A DNA stretch of 64,000 nucleotides from Deinococcales bacterium (GCA_013298595.1 JAAFIG010000013.1:1-64000); one strand, 5' to 3'; positions 44,779-54,989 are shown, counted from the first letter of the stretch. Program-made: numbers and translations. Notes: generated by a model from the sequence alone, not told the origin.

Positions 44779-45612
44779 ATGTCTTTGCCCAAACCTAACT
44801 TAACGGATGCTCCGATGCTGAGCGCTAAGCTGCGTCAGACGATGCTGCCAGCTTTCCTCGAGTATCTGTCGACCAGTGGGCATAATGGTACGCTTGAATG
44901 TGAAAGTCCAGACGAATTGCGAGCGTATTTTTGGGTGCAGCAAGGCAGAATTATTCGGGCTTTGTGTGAACGCGAAACCGATGAAACACTGCTTGAGGGA
45001 ATTCCTGCAATTCAGTCTATGTTGCGTTGGCGTTACGCTCAACTGAATTTATTTGAAGGCTTTATCAATGTGTCTGCCAATATGACTGGGACAATTTTAG
45101 GGACGTTACTCGAGGCAGCTCGGCTTGAAGATGAAATGCGTCGGGAGAAAACCTTCCGTCCTGAAGCGGCTATTCGCGTGCGGCATAATGTCAGTGCTTA
45201 TGAATCTTTGGGTGCGGCTGAACTTGAAATTCTCAAAAAAGCGCGTTTTGGTACAACGGTTAAAGAATTGCGAGATGCTTTTCGGGGGATGCCCATAGAC
45301 GGAGCATTGCTCGAGCTTCATGCCCAAGGTGTGATGGAAATAGAGGGTGTACCACAACCGACTCAGGTCAATAACACCTTCGAGTTACGGGCTTTTTTGG
45401 GTATTGTGATTCCGACTAAAATCGAACGACGCGCTGGTGGTTTTGGACGTGGTGGTGGCAATACTTCTTTAACGGGGTTTCATAAAACAGTGTACGATTT
45501 AATTAATGGTCAACGCAGTGCCGAGCAGTTACGCCAAGAATTACGGATTTCTCGAGGAGCAATCCGAGAATTACTGAAAAGCTTACGCAGTGCTGGTCTG
45601 ATAGATTATTAA
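44779..45612 (+). CDS. DUF4388-type protein
   Basis: A 277-residue protein. The N-terminal part has FLEYLSTSGHNGTLECESPDE and YFWVQQGRIIRALCE, the DUF4388 pattern seen in regulatory and gliding-related proteins of several phyla. Later helices contain LGAAELEILKKARFGTTVKEL and a C-terminal winged-helix-like end (RQELRISRGAIRELLKSLRSAGLIDY). It may sense or transduce a signal, perhaps with GTPases or kinases as elsewhere, but no partner is adjacent. Two bases before the deacetylase gene, so co-transcribed. Confidence 0.72.
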   Translation: MSLPKPNLTDAPMLSAKLRQTMLPAFLEYLSTSGHNGTLECESPDELRAYFWVQQGRIIRALCERETDETLLEGIPAIQSMLRWRYAQLNLFEGFINVSANMTGTILGTLLEAARLEDEMRREKTFRPEAAIRVRHNVSAYESLGAAELEILKKARFGTTVKELRDAFRGMPIDGALLELHAQGVMEIEGVPQPTQVNNTFELRAFLGIVIPTKIERRAGGFGRGGGNTSLTGFHKTVYDLINGQRSAEQLRQELRISRGAIRELLKSLRSAGLIDY

Positions 45613-47608: not shown

Positions 47609-49006
47609 TTATGGTGCTGAAAATGGTGATGGGATAACGTTAAAGATCAGTGCGGCGAGTAATGCCACAGCTAGAATTAAGACAACTCGTCCAAACCAAG
47701 TGCCAATCAGCCATTGCAAGAGTAAATAAGCGGTCAGTAAAACTGCGCCGTAAAAACCAACCAGCGATGCCACCAGTGGTAAAAAACGCATTTCGCCTAA
47801 GACAATTAAAGCACCACAAACCAAGTACAACAACCATAAGTAATCGCCACCTTGTTGTTGTGGTTTAGCCATGGGTGTACCACCGACCACTTGTGGCGGT
47901 GGGTTTGGATTATTGGTTGGTTTAGGTGTGCCCCAAATCTGAGCACCGGGTGCAGCTTTTGGTGCTTGATTGACAGGTGGTGTAACCTGTTGCTGAGGTG
48001 GTTGTGGTGGCGGTGGTGACACTCGAGTTGTTTGGGCAGCGGGTGCTTTTTTGTTGCCTTGGCTTTTCTCGAGCAAAGCTAGAAAATCCTCGGCGGTTTG
48101 TGGGCGGTCATCCACTTTCATTTTCATGGCTTTCTCGAGCACATCCGAAAAAGCTTTTGAAACATTTGGGTTCAATTCTCGAGCGGTGGATTGTTTAACA
48201 CCACTGGCACGGTCAGTGGCTGCCACAGGTTCTTTTGCGGTCAATGCAAATTGTAAAGTGCCTGCCAGAGCGTATAAATCGGTAAAAGGTCCACGCCGAG
48301 CTTCGGAAGCGTATTGCTCGAGAGGAGCATAACCTGGGGTGACAATAATGCTTTGTTTTGCGCCACCTGCAATGGCTCGAGCGCTACCAAAATCGATTAA
48401 TACTGCACCGCGTTGAACCATCATGATGTTGTCTGGTTTGATGTCACGGTGCAATAAATTGGCACTATGTACTAAATCCAGCGCGTTGACAATTTCTCGA
48501 GCAATTTGTAGCACTTGTTGCTCGGTGAGCACACCACCTTTTTCGACCAGGCTTTGTAAGGGTTTACCCTCGAGAAATTCCATGGTGTAGTACTCGGTGT
48601 CGTTTTCGGTGAAAACATCGTAGACCCGAACAATATGTGGATTCGGGTTGGTCAGGGTTAATTTTGCCACCACTCGAGCTTCATCAGCAAAGCGCGCTCG
48701 AGCTTCAGTAAATTCCTGAGGAGCATAAGTATTGGGCGGACGGACACTCATGCCCACGCGGACACTGCCGCTTGGTTGGAATTCTTTGACCACCACAGGA
48801 ATTGCCATGGTGGTATTTTGGGCTTTGTAGGTCACACCAAAGCCGCCCTGACCAAGGACTTTTTCGATTTTGTACTTACCACTCTGTAAGACAGTGCCTG
48901 TTTTTAGGGCAGTTGGGTACTGTGCGCCTTCAAGACTTCCGCCGCACATGCTACAAGTGGTGTTACTATCTGGGTTTTGGGTGGCACAATAAGGGCAAAC
49001 AATCAT
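47609..49006 (-). CDS. zinc-ribbon Ser/Thr protein kinase
   Basis: A 465-residue eukaryote-like kinase. Zinc ribbon Cys4, Cys7, Cys18, Cys21. Kinase domain about 44-310 with GQGGFG (52-57), Lys74 in VVVKEF, HRD (186-188), DFG (205-207) and a GYAPLEQY activation segment. A Pro/Gln-rich linker (about 325-385) leads to three hydrophobic segments at the C-terminus, so the kinase should be membrane-tethered. Last gene of a four-gene signalling operon; its natural partners are the PP2C protein and the FHA protein encoded upstream. Confidence 0.93.
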   Translation of the reverse strand: MIVCPYCATQNPDSNTTCSMCGGSLEGAQYPTALKTGTVLQSGKYKIEKVLGQGGFGVTYKAQNTTMAIPVVVKEFQPSGSVRVGMSVRPPNTYAPQEFTEARARFADEARVVAKLTLTNPNPHIVRVYDVFTENDTEYYTMEFLEGKPLQSLVEKGGVLTEQQVLQIAREIVNALDLVHSANLLHRDIKPDNIMMVQRGAVLIDFGSARAIAGGAKQSIIVTPGYAPLEQYASEARRGPFTDLYALAGTLQFALTAKEPVAATDRASGVKQSTARELNPNVSKAFSDVLEKAMKMKVDDRPQTAEDFLALLEKSQGNKKAPAAQTTRVSPPPPQPPQQQVTPPVNQAPKAAPGAQIWGTPKPTNNPNPPPQVVGGTPMAKPQQQGGDYLWLLYLVCGALIVLGEMRFLPLVASLVGFYGAVLLTAYLLLQWLIGTWFGRVVLILAVALLAALIFNVIPSPFSAP

Positions 49007-49037
49007 TTTTGATTCCTGAAAAGCTTATAAAGCTCAA

Positions 49038-50726
49038 TTAAATGGCGGCTCGTTCCTCGAGTTTTAATACCAGTGCTGTTGCATTGTCCGAGGTGTTGTG
49101 TTCAATAGCCACGCGCACCAATCTGTCGGCAAGGTCTTGAGGCTCGAGTGGTTCTTGTAAATAAACTGCAAATTCGCTGGGTGGGAACACCCCCCAGACA
49201 CCATCGGAAACAATAACTAATTTGGCATTGGTTGGCATTGTGAATTCGCGGACTTCAACATAATCTGGTGGTAATTCTCGGACAGAACCAAGTGCTCGCA
49301 TGATTTTATTGCTGTCTGGGTGATTATGGGCAGCCTCAGCTGAAATAATCCCCATTTTAACAAACATGGCGACCATGCTGTGATCTTCAGAAATTTGTTG
49401 CACTGTATCAGTGATTAAATAGGCTCGAGTATCACCAACATGACATAAAGCCAGTTTATCGCCATCAGCAATAATCCCTGTAAAAGTACAACCGCCTGAT
49501 TTGCCTTCCATTGCTCCTATAACTCGGGCATTGGCAAGAGAAATGGCTTCTAATACAGATTGGTTGCTAACTTCGGACAATGGGTAGTCCATAAAACCAG
49601 AAATAGCGGCTTGGCTGGCATCTTCGCCTTTTGCCATACCGCCAATACCATCAGCAACACAAGCCACCAAGTAGGTATCTGCGCCATTATCGCCCATCGA
49701 GCGGCGCATCCTGTACCCGACTGAATCCTCGTTGGTGATTCGGTCTGGGTTGATACCAACGGTACTAGCAGTACCGATTTGCCAGAAGTACCGTTTGGTT
49801 AAGGCACGCTCGAGTTTAGCGCATAACTCGAGCGCATCACCTGGATTAACTCGAGTGGTGGCTGTTGCCAGCATAGCTGTTAAGGCTTGTGGCGCACCTG
49901 GAATATTTGGGTATGTGACCAGCATTTCGCCTTCGATTGGCATTTGCCCAGTTAAACCATGATAAAGCAAGGCACCAAGCGAATAAACCCCTTCAATACC
50001 ATTGATTTTTGCACCAGCCGCACGTTCAGGTGCACCATAGCGTGGCGCTTCGGCACCAATCACATCACCGATTTTATGTACCCCAGGTAAACGCTGCAAA
50101 CGTGTCGGGTTGAGTAATACATCTCGAGGGTCTACGGCAACTGTGGCAAAACCCCGAGCATGTAAGTACCGATTTAAGCGAGCTAAGTCCACCACTGCCG
50201 AAACCACACTGCGAATATCTTTTTGGGCAATGGCGGTTTCGAGTGTAACCCCATCAAGTTTAGGATGGGCAATTAAGGTTTTATTTTCGTACTCACCAGC
50301 ATCCAGTAATGCAGGCAGCATTGGGTGCGGGTACAAAGCTCGAGTCACATCTGCGCCTCGAGCATAAATGGCTACCAATACTTCGCTGCCGTCAGGTGCT
50401 TTTGCCAGTACTCGCCCAGCGGACTGTTGCGTTAAAAGCGCGTACTCGCCACGTTCAAGTTTCATGATGGGCGGTACTACCAATTGCGGATTGGTAGTGC
50501 TGGCTGTGGTTGGTTCAAGAATTTCTTCCTCGAGAAAACCTGTATCTTCCTCGAGTTCAGCCACTACCACAGGTAATTCCTCGAACGTAGGTGGTGGTAG
50601 TAAAACAGTGGTTTCTTCTTCTGGCAGGACATACACACCATCTTCTGCGTCAATTGCTTCATCAGCACTGACTTCTGGCGTTGTTGTCAACGCTGCTTGG
50701 GATTGGCGTGGGTCTTCGTTGTTCAC
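49038..50726 (-). CDS. pseudokinase-PP2C phosphatase fusion
   Basis: A 562-residue two-domain protein. After an acidic low-complexity start, residues about 90-310 look like a kinase fold with YGAPER (230-235) and VYSLGALLYHGLTGQMP. Its catalytic loop reads ARGFATVAVDPRDVLLN, and it has no HRD or DFG, so it should be inactive. PP2C occupies about 318-560, with metal residues in CVADGIGG (Asp359), HVGDTRAYLI, IVSDGVWG (Asp508) and SDNATALV (Asp547). It starts with GTG overlapping the stop of the FHA gene. Probably reverses the kinase's phosphorylation. Confidence 0.9.
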   Translation of the reverse strand: MNNEDPRQSQAALTTTPEVSADEAIDAEDGVYVLPEEETTVLLPPPTFEELPVVVAELEEDTGFLEEEILEPTTASTTNPQLVVPPIMKLERGEYALLTQQSAGRVLAKAPDGSEVLVAIYARGADVTRALYPHPMLPALLDAGEYENKTLIAHPKLDGVTLETAIAQKDIRSVVSAVVDLARLNRYLHARGFATVAVDPRDVLLNPTRLQRLPGVHKIGDVIGAEAPRYGAPERAAGAKINGIEGVYSLGALLYHGLTGQMPIEGEMLVTYPNIPGAPQALTAMLATATTRVNPGDALELCAKLERALTKRYFWQIGTASTVGINPDRITNEDSVGYRMRRSMGDNGADTYLVACVADGIGGMAKGEDASQAAISGFMDYPLSEVSNQSVLEAISLANARVIGAMEGKSGGCTFTGIIADGDKLALCHVGDTRAYLITDTVQQISEDHSMVAMFVKMGIISAEAAHNHPDSNKIMRALGSVRELPPDYVEVREFTMPTNAKLVIVSDGVWGVFPPSEFAVYLQEPLEPQDLADRLVRVAIEHNTSDNATALVLKLEERAAI

Positions 50727-51490
50727 GCGGCATCACTCGACATGACAAATAAGAATTTCATATTGCCGAATGCAACTTCATCGCCATCGTTCAGGCTTTG
50801 CGGTTCGATGATGCGTGGGCTGTACTGGGCTTGCCCAGCGCGTTTAACATAAACACCATTGGTACTGCCAAGGTCGCGGACTAACCAGACACCATTCTCG
50901 AGATAAACTTCGGCATGACGGCGTGAGATATAATTTTCGCCTTGTCCGCCTGATAAATCAATATCCACAGGACCAGCACTTGGGTCAAAGCGTCCAACCA
51001 CCATGCGTTCGGAGTGCATGACAAACCCATCACCTGTCATACCACTGCGAGGGATTAACTTGGCTTGATTGACTTTGCCTGTAGGCAATGGGGTTTCCAT
51101 TGTGGCTTTGGAATTAAAAGTGCTGTCAGCAGTTGCGGCAGCCACAGCAGGGACAGCAGCGGCAACAACTTCAGCAACTGGTTCGTCCACATTCAAAGCA
51201 GGTTCATCCACAATAGGCAATGGTGGCGGTGTGACATCACCACTGAGTAATGGTGTGTCCAAAGCAGGAATGGCATCGGCGGCTGATTCCACTGCCAAAG
51301 GTTCTTCGATAACAGTCTGATGACCAGACGAATCGGCAATAACGGGTGCTTCAATAGGCGCGACAACTTCGGCAACGGCAGGAACAACGACTGGAGCAGC
51401 AACGGCAACACTTTGCAATTCAACGCCGCAACCTTCACAGAACTTCGAGCCTTCTGGGTTTTCCGTACCGCATACGTGACAAACGATCAT
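50723..51490 (-). CDS. zinc-ribbon FHA-domain protein
   Basis: A 255-residue adaptor. Zinc ribbon Cys4, Cys7, Cys18, Cys21 with nearly the same spacing and text as the kinase. A long Pro/Ala/Val-rich acidic linker (about 27-140) follows, then an FHA domain (about 145-250) with phosphothreonine-binding residues in GRFDP, SRRHAEVYLENG and DLGSTNGVYV. FHA domains read phosphothreonine marks, so it links the kinase to targets. AAGGAG precedes the ATG. Overlaps the PP2C gene by four bases. Confidence 0.92.
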   Translation of the reverse strand: MIVCHVCGTENPEGSKFCEGCGVELQSVAVAAPVVVPAVAEVVAPIEAPVIADSSGHQTVIEEPLAVESAADAIPALDTPLLSGDVTPPPLPIVDEPALNVDEPVAEVVAAAVPAVAAATADSTFNSKATMETPLPTGKVNQAKLIPRSGMTGDGFVMHSERMVVGRFDPSAGPVDIDLSGGQGENYISRRHAEVYLENGVWLVRDLGSTNGVYVKRAGQAQYSPRIIEPQSLNDGDEVAFGNMKFLFVMSSDAA

Positions 51491-51552
51491 GTTTACTCCT
51501 TAAATGTGTTTATTGTACGTGAATGGAGGCATCAAATGCCAATACCAAAAAT

Positions 51553-52893
51553 CTAAGCGCCAGTTAACTTACGAATTTCTTCGTCAGAAGGCAAACCGCT
51601 ACTTGCACTCGAGCCGCCACCCACTTTAATAGTTTGGGTTTTTGCCCCCATTTTAATGGTTTTTGCTGTGCCAGCACTCATTCCCTTACCACTCTCGAGT
51701 TCAGACTTGGCTTGATCCAAAACTTGGGTCATGGCAGCATTACCAAGTCGGACTGTCATGGCTCGAGCAATTTCAATGGTTTTAGCAGCAGCTTGTGGGT
51801 TGCTTTGGGCTTCTTTGGCAGCTTGTTTGACTAAGCCTTCTAAGTTGCGTTGTTGCACATACCCCATGACTGTTGGGTTAACAGCGGCAGTTGCGCCTTC
51901 GTCGAAACTAAATTCAACCACCACATCCACAGGCGGAATTTCGCCACGAGTGCCTTCGCCAGGCATATCAAAAGTTAAACCAATCTGAGCAATTCGCACT
52001 CGAGCGGGTGGGCGTGGTGGCAAGGTTAGCTCGAGTAAAAACGCAGTTTGGTCTTTGGATTCTAAGTTTCCTGCTCGAGATTTCATTGCGCCACCAGCGC
52101 TTTGCATTTCGCATTCGGCAAGGAACGGATACACGCGGGTGACACGATCTAAGGTAACGCCTTTGACACCACGTAAACTAAACTCGAGGTTGGTGACAAC
52201 TTCCGAGGAAGCGCGTTTGAATTCTTCACCTAGCACAGCAGGTAATTCTGAAGCTAAGACGCTGGCTGGTGGTTGTGCATTCTGACCAACCACATGGATG
52301 ACGCGTCCACCAGTACGATCCGAGATTTCACCCATCAGGTCTTCGTTGAATTCATCACCAACACCAAGGCTGGTGATCGTTACACCCTGAGCAACATAGG
52401 TATTGGTAACAGCGCGGCAAGCGTCTTCGTCGAACGTTGCGCCGTCGGTTAACAACATTACGCGCTTGTTTTTATTACCAGCCACAGTGTGATTGAGTGC
52501 CTCGAGCATACCCAAACCCATCATTGTGCCGCCTGAGTGTTTACGAAGGGCTTCGACACCTGCCAGTAAACTTGAGCGATTACTGGTTGGGGCGGTTAAT
52601 GTACTGGCATCATCATCAAATTGCACCACTGCAACACTATCTTGCGTGGTTAAATCTGAACTCGAGACTAAACTCGAGAGTGCTTGGATTGTCAGTTCCA
52701 ATTTCGTTTTACCACCAGATACTTTTTCGCGCATACTGCCTGAAGTATCGACAATAAACGTCAAAGCCAGTGGTGCTCGAGCTGTGATCTGAGGCGTTAA
52801 TTGCGCTAACAAAAAGAGTTTCTGGGTTTCTGTACCGCCCTCAGGTGAGGCTCGTAAATAGTTGCGGTGCGGAGTTAATGAGACTTCGATCAA
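51553..52893 (-). CDS. von Willebrand factor A domain protein
   Basis: A 446-residue protein. The vWA domain (about 40-215) has a complete metal site: DTSGSM at 49-54, a later Thr/Asp pair, and LLTDGATFDED. A beta-sandwich region follows (LTLPPRPPARVRIAQIGLTF). Helices and a Gly/Thr/Lys-rich tail (KTIKMGAKTQTIKVGGG), which could be phosphorylated on Thr, end it. TTG start with AGGAGG. First gene of the signalling operon. It resembles vWA proteins linked to kinase/phosphatase pairs elsewhere. Confidence 0.9.
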   Translation of the reverse strand: MIEVSLTPHRNYLRASPEGGTETQKLFLLAQLTPQITARAPLALTFIVDTSGSMREKVSGGKTKLELTIQALSSLVSSSDLTTQDSVAVVQFDDDASTLTAPTSNRSSLLAGVEALRKHSGGTMMGLGMLEALNHTVAGNKNKRVMLLTDGATFDEDACRAVTNTYVAQGVTITSLGVGDEFNEDLMGEISDRTGGRVIHVVGQNAQPPASVLASELPAVLGEEFKRASSEVVTNLEFSLRGVKGVTLDRVTRVYPFLAECEMQSAGGAMKSRAGNLESKDQTAFLLELTLPPRPPARVRIAQIGLTFDMPGEGTRGEIPPVDVVVEFSFDEGATAAVNPTVMGYVQQRNLEGLVKQAAKEAQSNPQAAAKTIEIARAMTVRLGNAAMTQVLDQAKSELESGKGMSAGTAKTIKMGAKTQTIKVGGGSSASSGLPSDEEIRKLTGA

Positions 52894-52991: not shown

Positions 52992-53061
52992 TTGCTAACC
53001 AAGACAGATATTTACTTGCTAACCAAGACAGATATTTACTTGCCAACCAAGAAAGTTGCTT
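52992..53061 (+). repeat. 24-base direct repeats upstream of the channel gene
   Basis: Two perfect 24-base units (52992-53015 and 53016-53039, beginning TTGCTAACCAAGACAG) are followed by two shortened, diverged units starting at 53040 and about 53060. The array ends just before the ribosome site of the gene at 53085, so it makes up the upstream promoter region. Confidence 0.7.
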
Positions 53062-53084: not shown

Positions 53085-54989
53085 ATGGGTTTCGTAAAGG
53101 TGGATAAAAACATGGAACAAATTTCTTTTCGGGAACGGTTTCGGTATTGGTTTGACAGTGTTATGGCAAAAGGTCCGCTTGCCACAATTGCTTTGTTATT
53201 TCTTGCCAGTGTTGGCTTTATCACCATTATTGGTTTGCTGGTCTCGGCTTTGGGTTTTGCTCCAGAAGATGAAAATGGCAAACCACAAGGACTTGCCGAT
53301 GTTATTTGGGGCAACTTAATGCGAACCTTAGACAGTGGCACAATGGGCGGAGACGTAGGCTGGGGATTTCGCGTTTTTATGCTTATTGTCACACTAGGTG
53401 GCGTGTTTATTGTGGCAAGTTTAATCGGCATTATCTCAAGTGCTTTTGACGGCAAAATCGAAGAACTCAAAAAAGGTCGGTCTAAAGTGCTCGAGACTGA
53501 CCATACCTTAATTCTGGGTTGGAATCCCCAAGTCATCGGTATCATCAATGAGATTTGCAAAGCCAATGAGTCGCGTAATAACGCGGCTATTGTTATTGTA
53601 GCTAACCAAGATAAAGTCGAAATGGAAGAAATTATTCGTGAACGTGTTAATAAAGGTAAAACCCGAATTATTTGTCGCAGCGGTAACCCAATAGACTTAA
53701 CCGATCTCGAATTAGGTAATCCTAATGCCAGTCGCAGCATTATTATTCTGGCAGAGACCAACACCGCAGACCCAGATGCCAGCATTATTAAAACTACATT
53801 GGCACTAACCAACCATCCTAAGCGTCGAGCAGCGCCGTATCATATTGTTGCCGAAATCCAAAACTACGATAATCTCGAGGCAGCTAAACTTGTTGGTAAA
53901 CACGAAGCCCATTTTGTACTGGCAAAAGATTTAATCTCGAGAATTACAGTGCAAACCTGTAGGCAAAGCGGTTTAAGTGTCATATACACCGAATTGCTCG
54001 ATTTTGGCGGCGATGAAATATACTTTACGAAACAACCAAGCCTTGCGGGAAAAACCTATTTTATGGCTCAACAAGCTTTTGAGAAATCTGCGGTTATGGG
54101 ATTTGCTCGAGATGGCGTGATTCAACTTAATCCACCCGCAGAAACAATTTTAACAGCCACGGACGAACTGATTGTCATTGCCGAAGATGACAGTTTGATT
54201 GTGCAAACCACAATTCCAAGCCACACAGAGACCAAACATATTGCCCTTGCCGAAAATCCTGTTCAAAAAGCTGAGAAAACGTTAATCCTTGGCTTTAATA
54301 ACTCCTTATCAACCATTATCCATGAACTTGATTCTTATGTTGCCGTTGGCTCGGAAATCCTGATTATTGCCACCAAAGACCAACCAAACTTACCAACTGC
54401 TAAAAACCAACAAATCAGTTACCGACAAGCCGACCCGTCCATGCGAGCCACCCTCGAGACACTACAACCTTTTCCATACGACCATATTATTGTCCTTGCC
54501 AGCGACAGCCTCGAGCCTCAACTGGCAGATGCCAAAACCCTGATTACACTGTTGCACTTACGTGATATTGCCGATAAATTAGGGCGTGACCTGAGTATTG
54601 TTTCAGAAATGCTTGATACCGCGAACCGTGAACTTGCCGAAGTCACCAAAGCAGATGACTTTATTGTCTCCGATAAACTGATCAGTTTAATGCTTTCGCA
54701 AATATCAGAAAATAAGCAACTGGCAGAAGTGTTCAGGTATCTATTTTCCAATATTGGTAACGAAATTTACTTAACCGATGTCGAACAGTACATTCAAGCG
54801 GGTAGTACCACCAACTTTTACACTATTCTCGAGGCAGCTAAGCGTCGCAACGAAACAGCCATTGGCTACCGTCTTGTACAACATGCCCATGATGCTAATC
54901 GAGCCTATGGAGTCAAAATCAATCCGCGTAAAAGCGATCAAGTCACATACTCGAAGGGCGATAAAATTATTGTGCTAGCCGAAGCATAA
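53085..54989 (+). CDS. Castor/Pollux-type ion channel with RCK domains
   Basis: A 634-residue membrane protein. A first helix (about 31-56) and a second (about 94-118) flank a pore loop with RTLDSGTMGGD (80-90) in place of the K+ filter TVGYG. Two RCK-like Rossmann domains follow (TLILGWNPQVIGII near 131-145; TLILGFNNSLSTII near 400). This is the bacterial Castor/Pollux/DMI1 architecture of cation channels gated by cytoplasmic ligands such as Ca2+. The ion is unknown. It starts with ATG 53085 behind AGAGGA, downstream of the 24-base repeats. Confidence 0.88.
   Translation: MGFVKVDKNMEQISFRERFRYWFDSVMAKGPLATIALLFLASVGFITIIGLLVSALGFAPEDENGKPQGLADVIWGNLMRTLDSGTMGGDVGWGFRVFMLIVTLGGVFIVASLIGIISSAFDGKIEELKKGRSKVLETDHTLILGWNPQVIGIINEICKANESRNNAAIVIVANQDKVEMEEIIRERVNKGKTRIICRSGNPIDLTDLELGNPNASRSIIILAETNTADPDASIIKTTLALTNHPKRRAAPYHIVAEIQNYDNLEAAKLVGKHEAHFVLAKDLISRITVQTCRQSGLSVIYTELLDFGGDEIYFTKQPSLAGKTYFMAQQAFEKSAVMGFARDGVIQLNPPAETILTATDELIVIAEDDSLIVQTTIPSHTETKHIALAENPVQKAEKTLILGFNNSLSTIIHELDSYVAVGSEILIIATKDQPNLPTAKNQQISYRQADPSMRATLETLQPFPYDHIIVLASDSLEPQLADAKTLITLLHLRDIADKLGRDLSIVSEMLDTANRELAEVTKADDFIVSDKLISLMLSQISENKQLAEVFRYLFSNIGNEIYLTDVEQYIQAGSTTNFYTILEAAKRRNETAIGYRLVQHAHDANRAYGVKINPRKSDQVTYSKGDKIIVLAEA

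Follow-up and report, generated by a model that had tools for sequence, protein, structure and literature searches.

A four-gene operon of a Deinococcales bacterium encodes an ArnA-ArnB-like FHA/vWA pair with its own zinc-ribbon kinase and pseudokinase-PP2C fusion, a putative Ser/Thr phospho-switch

In Sulfolobales the FHA protein ArnA is paired with the vWA protein ArnB in a switch for motility and the DNA-damage response, and both have been resolved together in a co-crystal (ArnAB, 8s05). The zinc ribbon of ArnA binds the beta-sandwich and the C-terminal domain of ArnB, the kinase ArnC phosphorylates ArnB at T353, T363 and T375, and FHA binding is weakened by the ArnB exchanges T353A/T354A or T359A/T363A (PMC12852372). 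The C-terminal threonines of ArnB are thus phosphorylated by ArnC and then bound by the FHA domain (PMC12852372, PMC6509490). In bacteria, vWA, PP2C and zinc-ribbon kinase genes form the TerY-P triads of Ter-type stress systems, whose kinases bear the zinc ribbon at the C-terminus (PMC11090510), and linked genes of the same three types accompany GAP1-N2 GTPases in actinobacteria (Kaur et al. 2020, PMC7159879). Here we describe an operon of four genes for a vWA protein, an FHA protein, a pseudokinase-PP2C fusion and a zinc-ribbon kinase, which is located in a 64,000-nucleotide stretch of a Deinococcales bacterium (GCA_013298595.1, JAAFIG010000013.1:1-64000; in the following, the window). A first-pass annotation had proposed a signalling operon that recalls TerY-P but has an added FHA component and a pseudokinase-PP2C fusion, and these features were upheld. 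In our view the operon probably encodes a self-contained Ser/Thr phospho-switch, which is built on an ArnA-ArnB-like FHA/vWA pair and brings along a kinase and a phosphatase of its own.

The four genes occupy positions 47,609-52,893 of the window, all on the minus strand and in the order vWA, FHA, fusion, kinase, whereby the intergenic spacing amounts to 62 nt (vWA/FHA), -4 nt (FHA/fusion, an overlap) and 31 nt (fusion/kinase). Coordinates and Pfam matches agree with the tightly packed genes of these domain types that had been annotated. The vWA gene starts with a TTG codon preceded by GGAGG, and the same holds for a locus from the same genus. The vWA and FHA genes and their parts are located as follows:

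51553..52893, minus: ArnB-like vWA protein, 446 aa (Pfam VWA 3.8e-19), with N-terminal strands, the vWA domain, a beta-rich region, and C-terminal helices and tail
51619..51678, minus: residues 406-425 of the vWA protein (SAGTAKTIKMGAKTQTIKVG), the predicted phospho-tail, which may be the substrate of the kinase and the ligand of the FHA domain
51556..51594, minus: peptide LPSDEEIRKLTGA, conserved at the very C-terminus of the vWA homologues; cyanobacteria have a related form
50723..51490, minus: ArnA-like reader of zinc ribbon, disordered linker and FHA domain, 255 aa (Pfam FHA 3.1e-13)
51416..51490, minus: zinc ribbon of the FHA protein (C4, C7, C18, C21)
50765..51001, minus: FHA domain, residues 164-242 (Pfam)

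Among all PDB sequences, the best single-sequence matches of the vWA protein were 8s05_A (ArnB, 6.9e-7) and 5a8j (vWA2, an ArnB paralogue, 1.1e-5). For the FHA protein the two best PDB matches were 5a8i and 8s05_C, both of which are ArnA, and this was the case with the single sequence as well as with the family profile; in the latter search the E-values were 1.3e-14 and 1.5e-14, respectively, and the ribbon and the FHA domain were both aligned. The FHA residues G166, S189, R190, H192, N211 and G212 are invariant in the family. In the vWA protein the metal ion-dependent adhesion site (MIDAS; D49-x-S51-x-S53, T123, D150) is intact, and its residues are invariant in 15 homologues. Independently of each other, the two proteins point to both members of a single solved complex. 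Judged by these matches, ArnA-ArnB, which had not been proposed in the first-pass annotation, is a closer counterpart of the operon than TerY-P.

The second line of evidence concerns the C-terminal tail of the vWA protein, in which S406, T409, K411, T412, G416 and K418 are invariant in both Deinococcota and Cyanobacteria. The motif T-x-[KR]-[IMV]-[GS], which was defined post hoc from sequences already seen, occurs in the C-terminal 70 residues of 22/23 homologues and not once in 9,193 aa elsewhere, and there are three copies in the matching ArnB segment, which lie at T344, T354 and T363 (numbering of the ArnB paper). It is our leading testable prediction that this tail would be phosphorylated and would then serve as ligand of the FHA domain.

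The remaining two genes of the operon comprise the following features:

49038..50726, minus: pseudokinase-PP2C fusion, 562 aa
50508..50537, minus: acidic linker motif FLEEEILEPT, fusion residues 64-73, N-terminal to the pseudokinase
49797..50465, minus: pseudokinase domain, fusion residues about 88-310 (profile against PknB 6.8e-13)
49047..49757, minus: PP2C phosphatase domain (Pfam PP2C 2e-9, NCBIfam Stp1/IreP-type 7e-40)
47609..49006, minus: Ser/Thr kinase of 465 aa with a zinc ribbon and C-terminal membrane segments (Pfam Pkinase 1.3e-35)
48932..49006, minus: zinc ribbon of the kinase (C4, C7, C18, C21), cysteines invariant in 11 homologues

With the window protein as single sequence, Pfam gave no match in the pseudokinase region. 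The value for PknB structures given above was obtained with a profile of eight Deinococcota homologues, which also matched many other kinases, and hhalign aligned the region with the operon's own kinases (P 94%, E 2e-7). The catalytic loop reads TVAVDPRDV where HRDxKPxN is expected, and the beta3 lysine and the DFG motif are gone, while the APE motif and the helix after it are retained. Outside the family of the window, the aspartate of HRD is often kept in the pseudokinase, its lysine and asparagine are not. The N-terminal half of the fusion, which had been annotated as an inactive kinase-like domain, is by these alignments indeed a real kinase fold that has lost its catalytic motifs. In the PP2C half the metal-binding residues (NED, DGxGG, SDG, DN) are conserved in 18 homologues, apart from a change of NED to NQD in four members of family f5. 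The linker of the Deinococcota fusions is variable except for a retained LE[ED]-x-h motif, and cyanobacterial fusions carry a similar acidic motif at a non-homologous position. This acidic motif is a possible ligand of the vWA MIDAS; since its positions in the two phyla are non-homologous, we treat it as no more than a lead. As a parent of the fusion we considered PRK14559, a cyanobacterial zinc-ribbon PP2C, which was rejected, as it matches the PP2C part and separate short zinc-ribbon stretches only.

It could also be that the pseudokinase is a leftover or spacer and that the PP2C acts generally on many substrates, so that the four genes would form an ordinary housekeeping phospho-signalling cluster. 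The residues of the pseudokinase catalytic loop vary freely among lineages, and many generic PP2C and kinase domains occur in these genomes, both of which observations would fit such a cluster. However, the pseudokinase fusion is retained in two phyla and tracks the vWA gene: full-length fusion homologues were found in 7/61 genomes, and all seven are also vWA-positive. The fusion moreover co-varies with all its partners, as the pairwise distances of the four proteins across 15 genomes correlate with r 0.88-0.98, which is expected under co-inheritance. We therefore regard a housekeeping cluster as distinctly unlikely.

In the kinase of the window the G-loop, HRDIK and DFG are intact, and across the active kinases the G-loop, HRDIK/HRDLK and DFG are retained, with a distant extra copy as the single exception. 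Three to four hydrophobic segments lie within residues 386-459, which is consistent with the membrane protein that had been annotated. This C-terminal part is freely swapped between lineages, where membrane segments, TPR repeats or a beta-helix are found. The N-terminal ribbon of the kinase had been called almost the same as that of the FHA protein, and a shared docking point had been suggested from it. The cysteines at positions 4, 7, 18 and 21 are indeed present in both, but the FHA and kinase ribbons of the same operon are 37% identical (0.369) and those of different genomes 36% (0.357). Since ribbons from the same operon are no closer than ribbons across genomes, their co-variation gives no support to shared docking. 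The FHA ribbons among themselves have a mean identity of 77% across genomes, and their cysteine spacing equals that of SisArnA (C5, 8, 19, 22; PMC10470591). By analogy, the direct binding of the ArnA ribbon to its vWA partner ArnB appears to be the better model for the FHA ribbon.

From these features a mechanism can be proposed, in which the FHA protein would be pre-docked on the vWA protein via its zinc ribbon, and the membrane-anchored zinc-ribbon kinase, with its variable C-terminal half, would act as input sensor. The kinase would phosphorylate the vWA C-tail at T409, T412 and T421, within the block S-x2-T-x-K-T-[ILVM]-[KR]-h-G, and the FHA domain would then bind the phosphorylated tail, whereby the complex may be tightened or rearranged. 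The PP2C half of the fusion would reset the tail, and the pseudokinase half may hold the PP2C on the kinase or on the substrate. The MIDAS of the vWA protein would be left free for an acidic ligand, possibly the LEEE linker of the fusion or an outside effector. The output would be whatever the vWA/FHA complex captures in the respective host, for instance Ter proteins in one lineage and double-GTPase systems on cyanobacterial plasmids.

Several findings weigh against this reading. With the vWA family profile, ArnB is slightly outscored by another vWA protein, 4cn8, and collagen VI is not far off. As the ArnB match is weak and is outscored in this way, the link of the vWA protein to ArnB rests mainly on its pairing with the ArnA-like protein. 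Besides the post hoc definition of the tail motif, some of its cyanobacterial matches fall in the helix preceding the tail and not in the tail. In HMMER the alignment of the tail with ArnB does not reach significance (i-E about 730), and 2-3/400 shuffles score equally high, which is suggestive only. No Pfam match to the ArnB_C domain (IPR040929) was obtained in the C-terminal region in any of the 15 homologues. The phosphate-binding Arg167 of the FHA domain is kept in Deinococcota, but is an isoleucine in cyanobacteria (loci L065-L068), so that phosphothreonine binding may be weak or abnormal there. Structure predictions reached a predicted local distance difference test score (pLDDT) of 34 for the vWA protein and 33 for the fusion, so that both models are of poor quality. 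Finally, the archaeal kinases ArnC and ArnD and the phosphatase PP2A differ in architecture from the enzymes of the operon.

The expectation that the genes co-occur elsewhere was confirmed by a neighbourhood survey, which found the set in many Deinococcota genomes and on plasmids. The vWA protein is present in 16/111 Deinococcota genomes from three families, with none listed in families f3 or f4, and genes for the zinc-ribbon kinase, the zinc-ribbon FHA protein and the pseudokinase-PP2C fusion adjoin the vWA gene wherever the contig continues (it ends early at the module in G037, G065, G066, G075 and G012). The exception is G063, from which only the vWA protein and the kinase were recovered and where the stretch includes masked bases. 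Another contig titled 'Deinococcales bacterium' shows the same gene order, with proteins 90, 57, 71 and 80% identical to those of the window; among lineages in general the gene order varies. Outside Deinococcota the distribution rests on plasmid records, of which 11/72,556 gave full-length vWA matches and the same 11 gave close FHA matches. Three of these plasmids are from Deinococcus, D. radiodurans among them, and eight are cyanobacterial; a twelfth FHA match, from Caballeronia, was weak. The vWA protein was not found in phage records.

Like the window, D. radiodurans carries the gene set, as DRA0331-DRA0335, but with an extra kinase that is fused to a beta-helix. No description of DRA0331-DRA0335 as a module was found in the literature searched, where the genes are annotated singly as VWFA, Zn-finger+FHA and PP2C (PMC2225504). 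In an oxyR mutant the induction was 3.97-fold for DRA0331 (VWFA), 4.28-fold for DRA0333 (Zn-finger+FHA) and 3.67-fold for DRA0334 (PP2C), and DRA0334 was up 2.2-fold under peroxide (p 0.06; PMC2225504); these three genes are equated with the plasmid locus by gene order and annotation, not by sequence. As the DNA-damage response of Saccharolobus is under the control of SisArnA (PMC10470591), a stress role is plausible for the module as well. The DRR11 plasmid record of D. radiodurans (L063:12178-13121) has the reader annotated as two adjacent genes, one for the ribbon and one for the FHA domain, and in other Deinococcus records it is one gene.

The module might also be regarded as a divergent TerY-P module, that is a vWA/PP2C/kinase triad for Ter-type stress systems to which an FHA adaptor was added. 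It has the same types of components, and in genome G008 (contig C7, about 28,000-55,700) it is embedded on a single strand in a complete Ter operon, where TerD x3 and TerC are followed by the module and then by ATP-grasp, PRTase, HAD, StiP and C-C lyase genes; this locus also holds three further zinc-ribbon kinases. The analogy with TerY-P that had been drawn at first is thereby strengthened. The absence of nearby ter genes, which had also been annotated, holds for the window; the genome itself, however, has a Ter operon on another contig (C56; L086:4979-16633) with TerD, TerB, TerC, ATP-grasp, PRTase/TRSP, StiP/PELOTA and C-C lyase. The open reading frames scanned at this operon include no vWA, kinase or PP2C, so that the module could act on it in trans. 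However, the kinase ribbon is N-terminal here and C-terminal in TerY-P (PMC11090510), and the PADLOC model for TerY matches only residues 34-74 of the 446-aa vWA protein (41 residues, E 3.5e-5), so that by definition the set is not a TerY-P triad. Furthermore, TerD is missing from 7/8 other module-bearing genomes tested, the eighth being G008, and no ter gene was found in the window or near 20 other module loci. A divergent TerY-P module is therefore an unlikely description of the operon.

A further explanation would be that the genes constitute the regulatory part of GTPase-centred conflict (defence) systems of the type described by Kaur et al. 2020 for GAP1-N2 GTPases, in which linked zinc-ribbon kinase, PP2C and vWA genes have been described (PMC7159879, section 29). 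In line with this, the distribution of the module is patchy and frequently on plasmids, and one or two double-GTPase genes precede the module by about 7-15 kb on 5/5 cyanobacterial plasmids tested (L065-L069), which also served as positive control for the DO-GTPase (double-GTPase) search. Several of these plasmids also carry further vWA, ARC6-like and serine-hydrolase genes. However, the search gave no match in the window genome (DO-GTPase1) or on three Deinococcus plasmids, and the theme of PMC7159879 is confined to actinobacteria, with no mention of an FHA partner or a pseudokinase. Moreover, the FHA protein has no defence-family match, and the other proteins match generic kinases only. We consider it improbable that the operon is a part of such a system. 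Taking together the Ter and GTPase settings and the standalone one seen in the window, we read this as one regulatory cassette that serves several settings.

Somewhat more tentatively than the phospho-switch itself, and with a little less than even confidence, we suggest that this cassette is a portable, previously unnamed four-protein phospho-switch, namely a bacterial ArnA-ArnB homologue that has a kinase of its own and a phosphatase guided by the pseudokinase, and which would plug into a Ter operon, into double-GTPase systems and, as a standalone unit, into an oxidative-stress operon of Deinococcus. If this is true, the ArnA-ArnB FHA/vWA switch would belong to a signalling kit that is shared across domains and is not peculiar to archaea, and bacteria would have a complete version of it, in which one operon supplies the writer, the eraser and the reader. 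DRA0331-DRA0334 of D. radiodurans would then be a tractable system for learning the roles of the vWA/FHA switch, and would inform on the purpose that a pseudokinase serves in bacteria when it is fused to its phosphatase, as well as on the exchange of cassettes between Ter, GTPase and standalone contexts.

With regard to the surroundings of the operon, a CASTOR/POLLUX-type channel protein is encoded divergently at 53085-54989 and a DUF4388-HTH protein at 44779-45612, and the flanking genes are not the same in the loci of relatives. A 24-bp tandem repeat of 2.5 copies lies upstream of the vWA gene (window 52992-53052); it was dropped as a candidate operator because the same-genus locus is without it. 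Promoter and terminator scans gave site numbers not above those in shuffles. As an observation on the window as a whole, CTCGAG occurs 388 times in the 64 kb, where 12.5 are expected from base composition (31-fold), the next palindromic hexamer reaching 2.2 times the expected number, and the flanks of CTCGAG are without strong preference. The enrichment is about 27-fold at other loci from the window's family, 15-fold in f2 and about 4-7-fold at f3, f4 and f5 loci, and on Deinococcus plasmids the hexamer is depleted (6 seen, 20 expected). This excess resembles the cyanobacterial HIP1 phenomenon with a different palindrome; CTCGAG is not mentioned in the HIP paper PMC4390886.

Compared with known systems, the module shares with the actinobacterial GarA/OdhI-PknB-Stp switch a kinase, a PP2C and an FHA reader with a similar FHA domain. 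GarA and OdhI bind their own phosphothreonine and, unlike the module of the window, are not known to have a zinc ribbon or a vWA partner. With the GAP1-N2 third-theme systems it has the linked zinc-ribbon kinase, PP2C and vWA genes in common, as well as the GTPases near its cyanobacterial copies, whereas those systems have no reported FHA protein or pseudokinase and no GTPase was found with the Deinococcota copies. The TerY-P triad likewise consists of vWA, PP2C and zinc-ribbon kinase, but the module differs from it in the ribbon at the kinase N-terminus, the long vWA protein, the FHA protein, and the fusion of the PP2C to a pseudokinase. In ArnA-ArnB, as in the module, a protein of zinc ribbon (C-x2-C-x10-C-x2-C), flexible linker and FHA domain has as its partner a vWA protein with C-terminal threonines, which are phosphosites in ArnB and predicted phosphosites in the window protein. 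As far as sequence comparison can tell, it is thus ArnA-ArnB and not TerY-P that is the closest functional relative of the module, from which it is set apart by the fact that the window operon itself supplies both enzymes, a zinc-ribbon kinase dedicated to the module and a PP2C fused to a pseudokinase.

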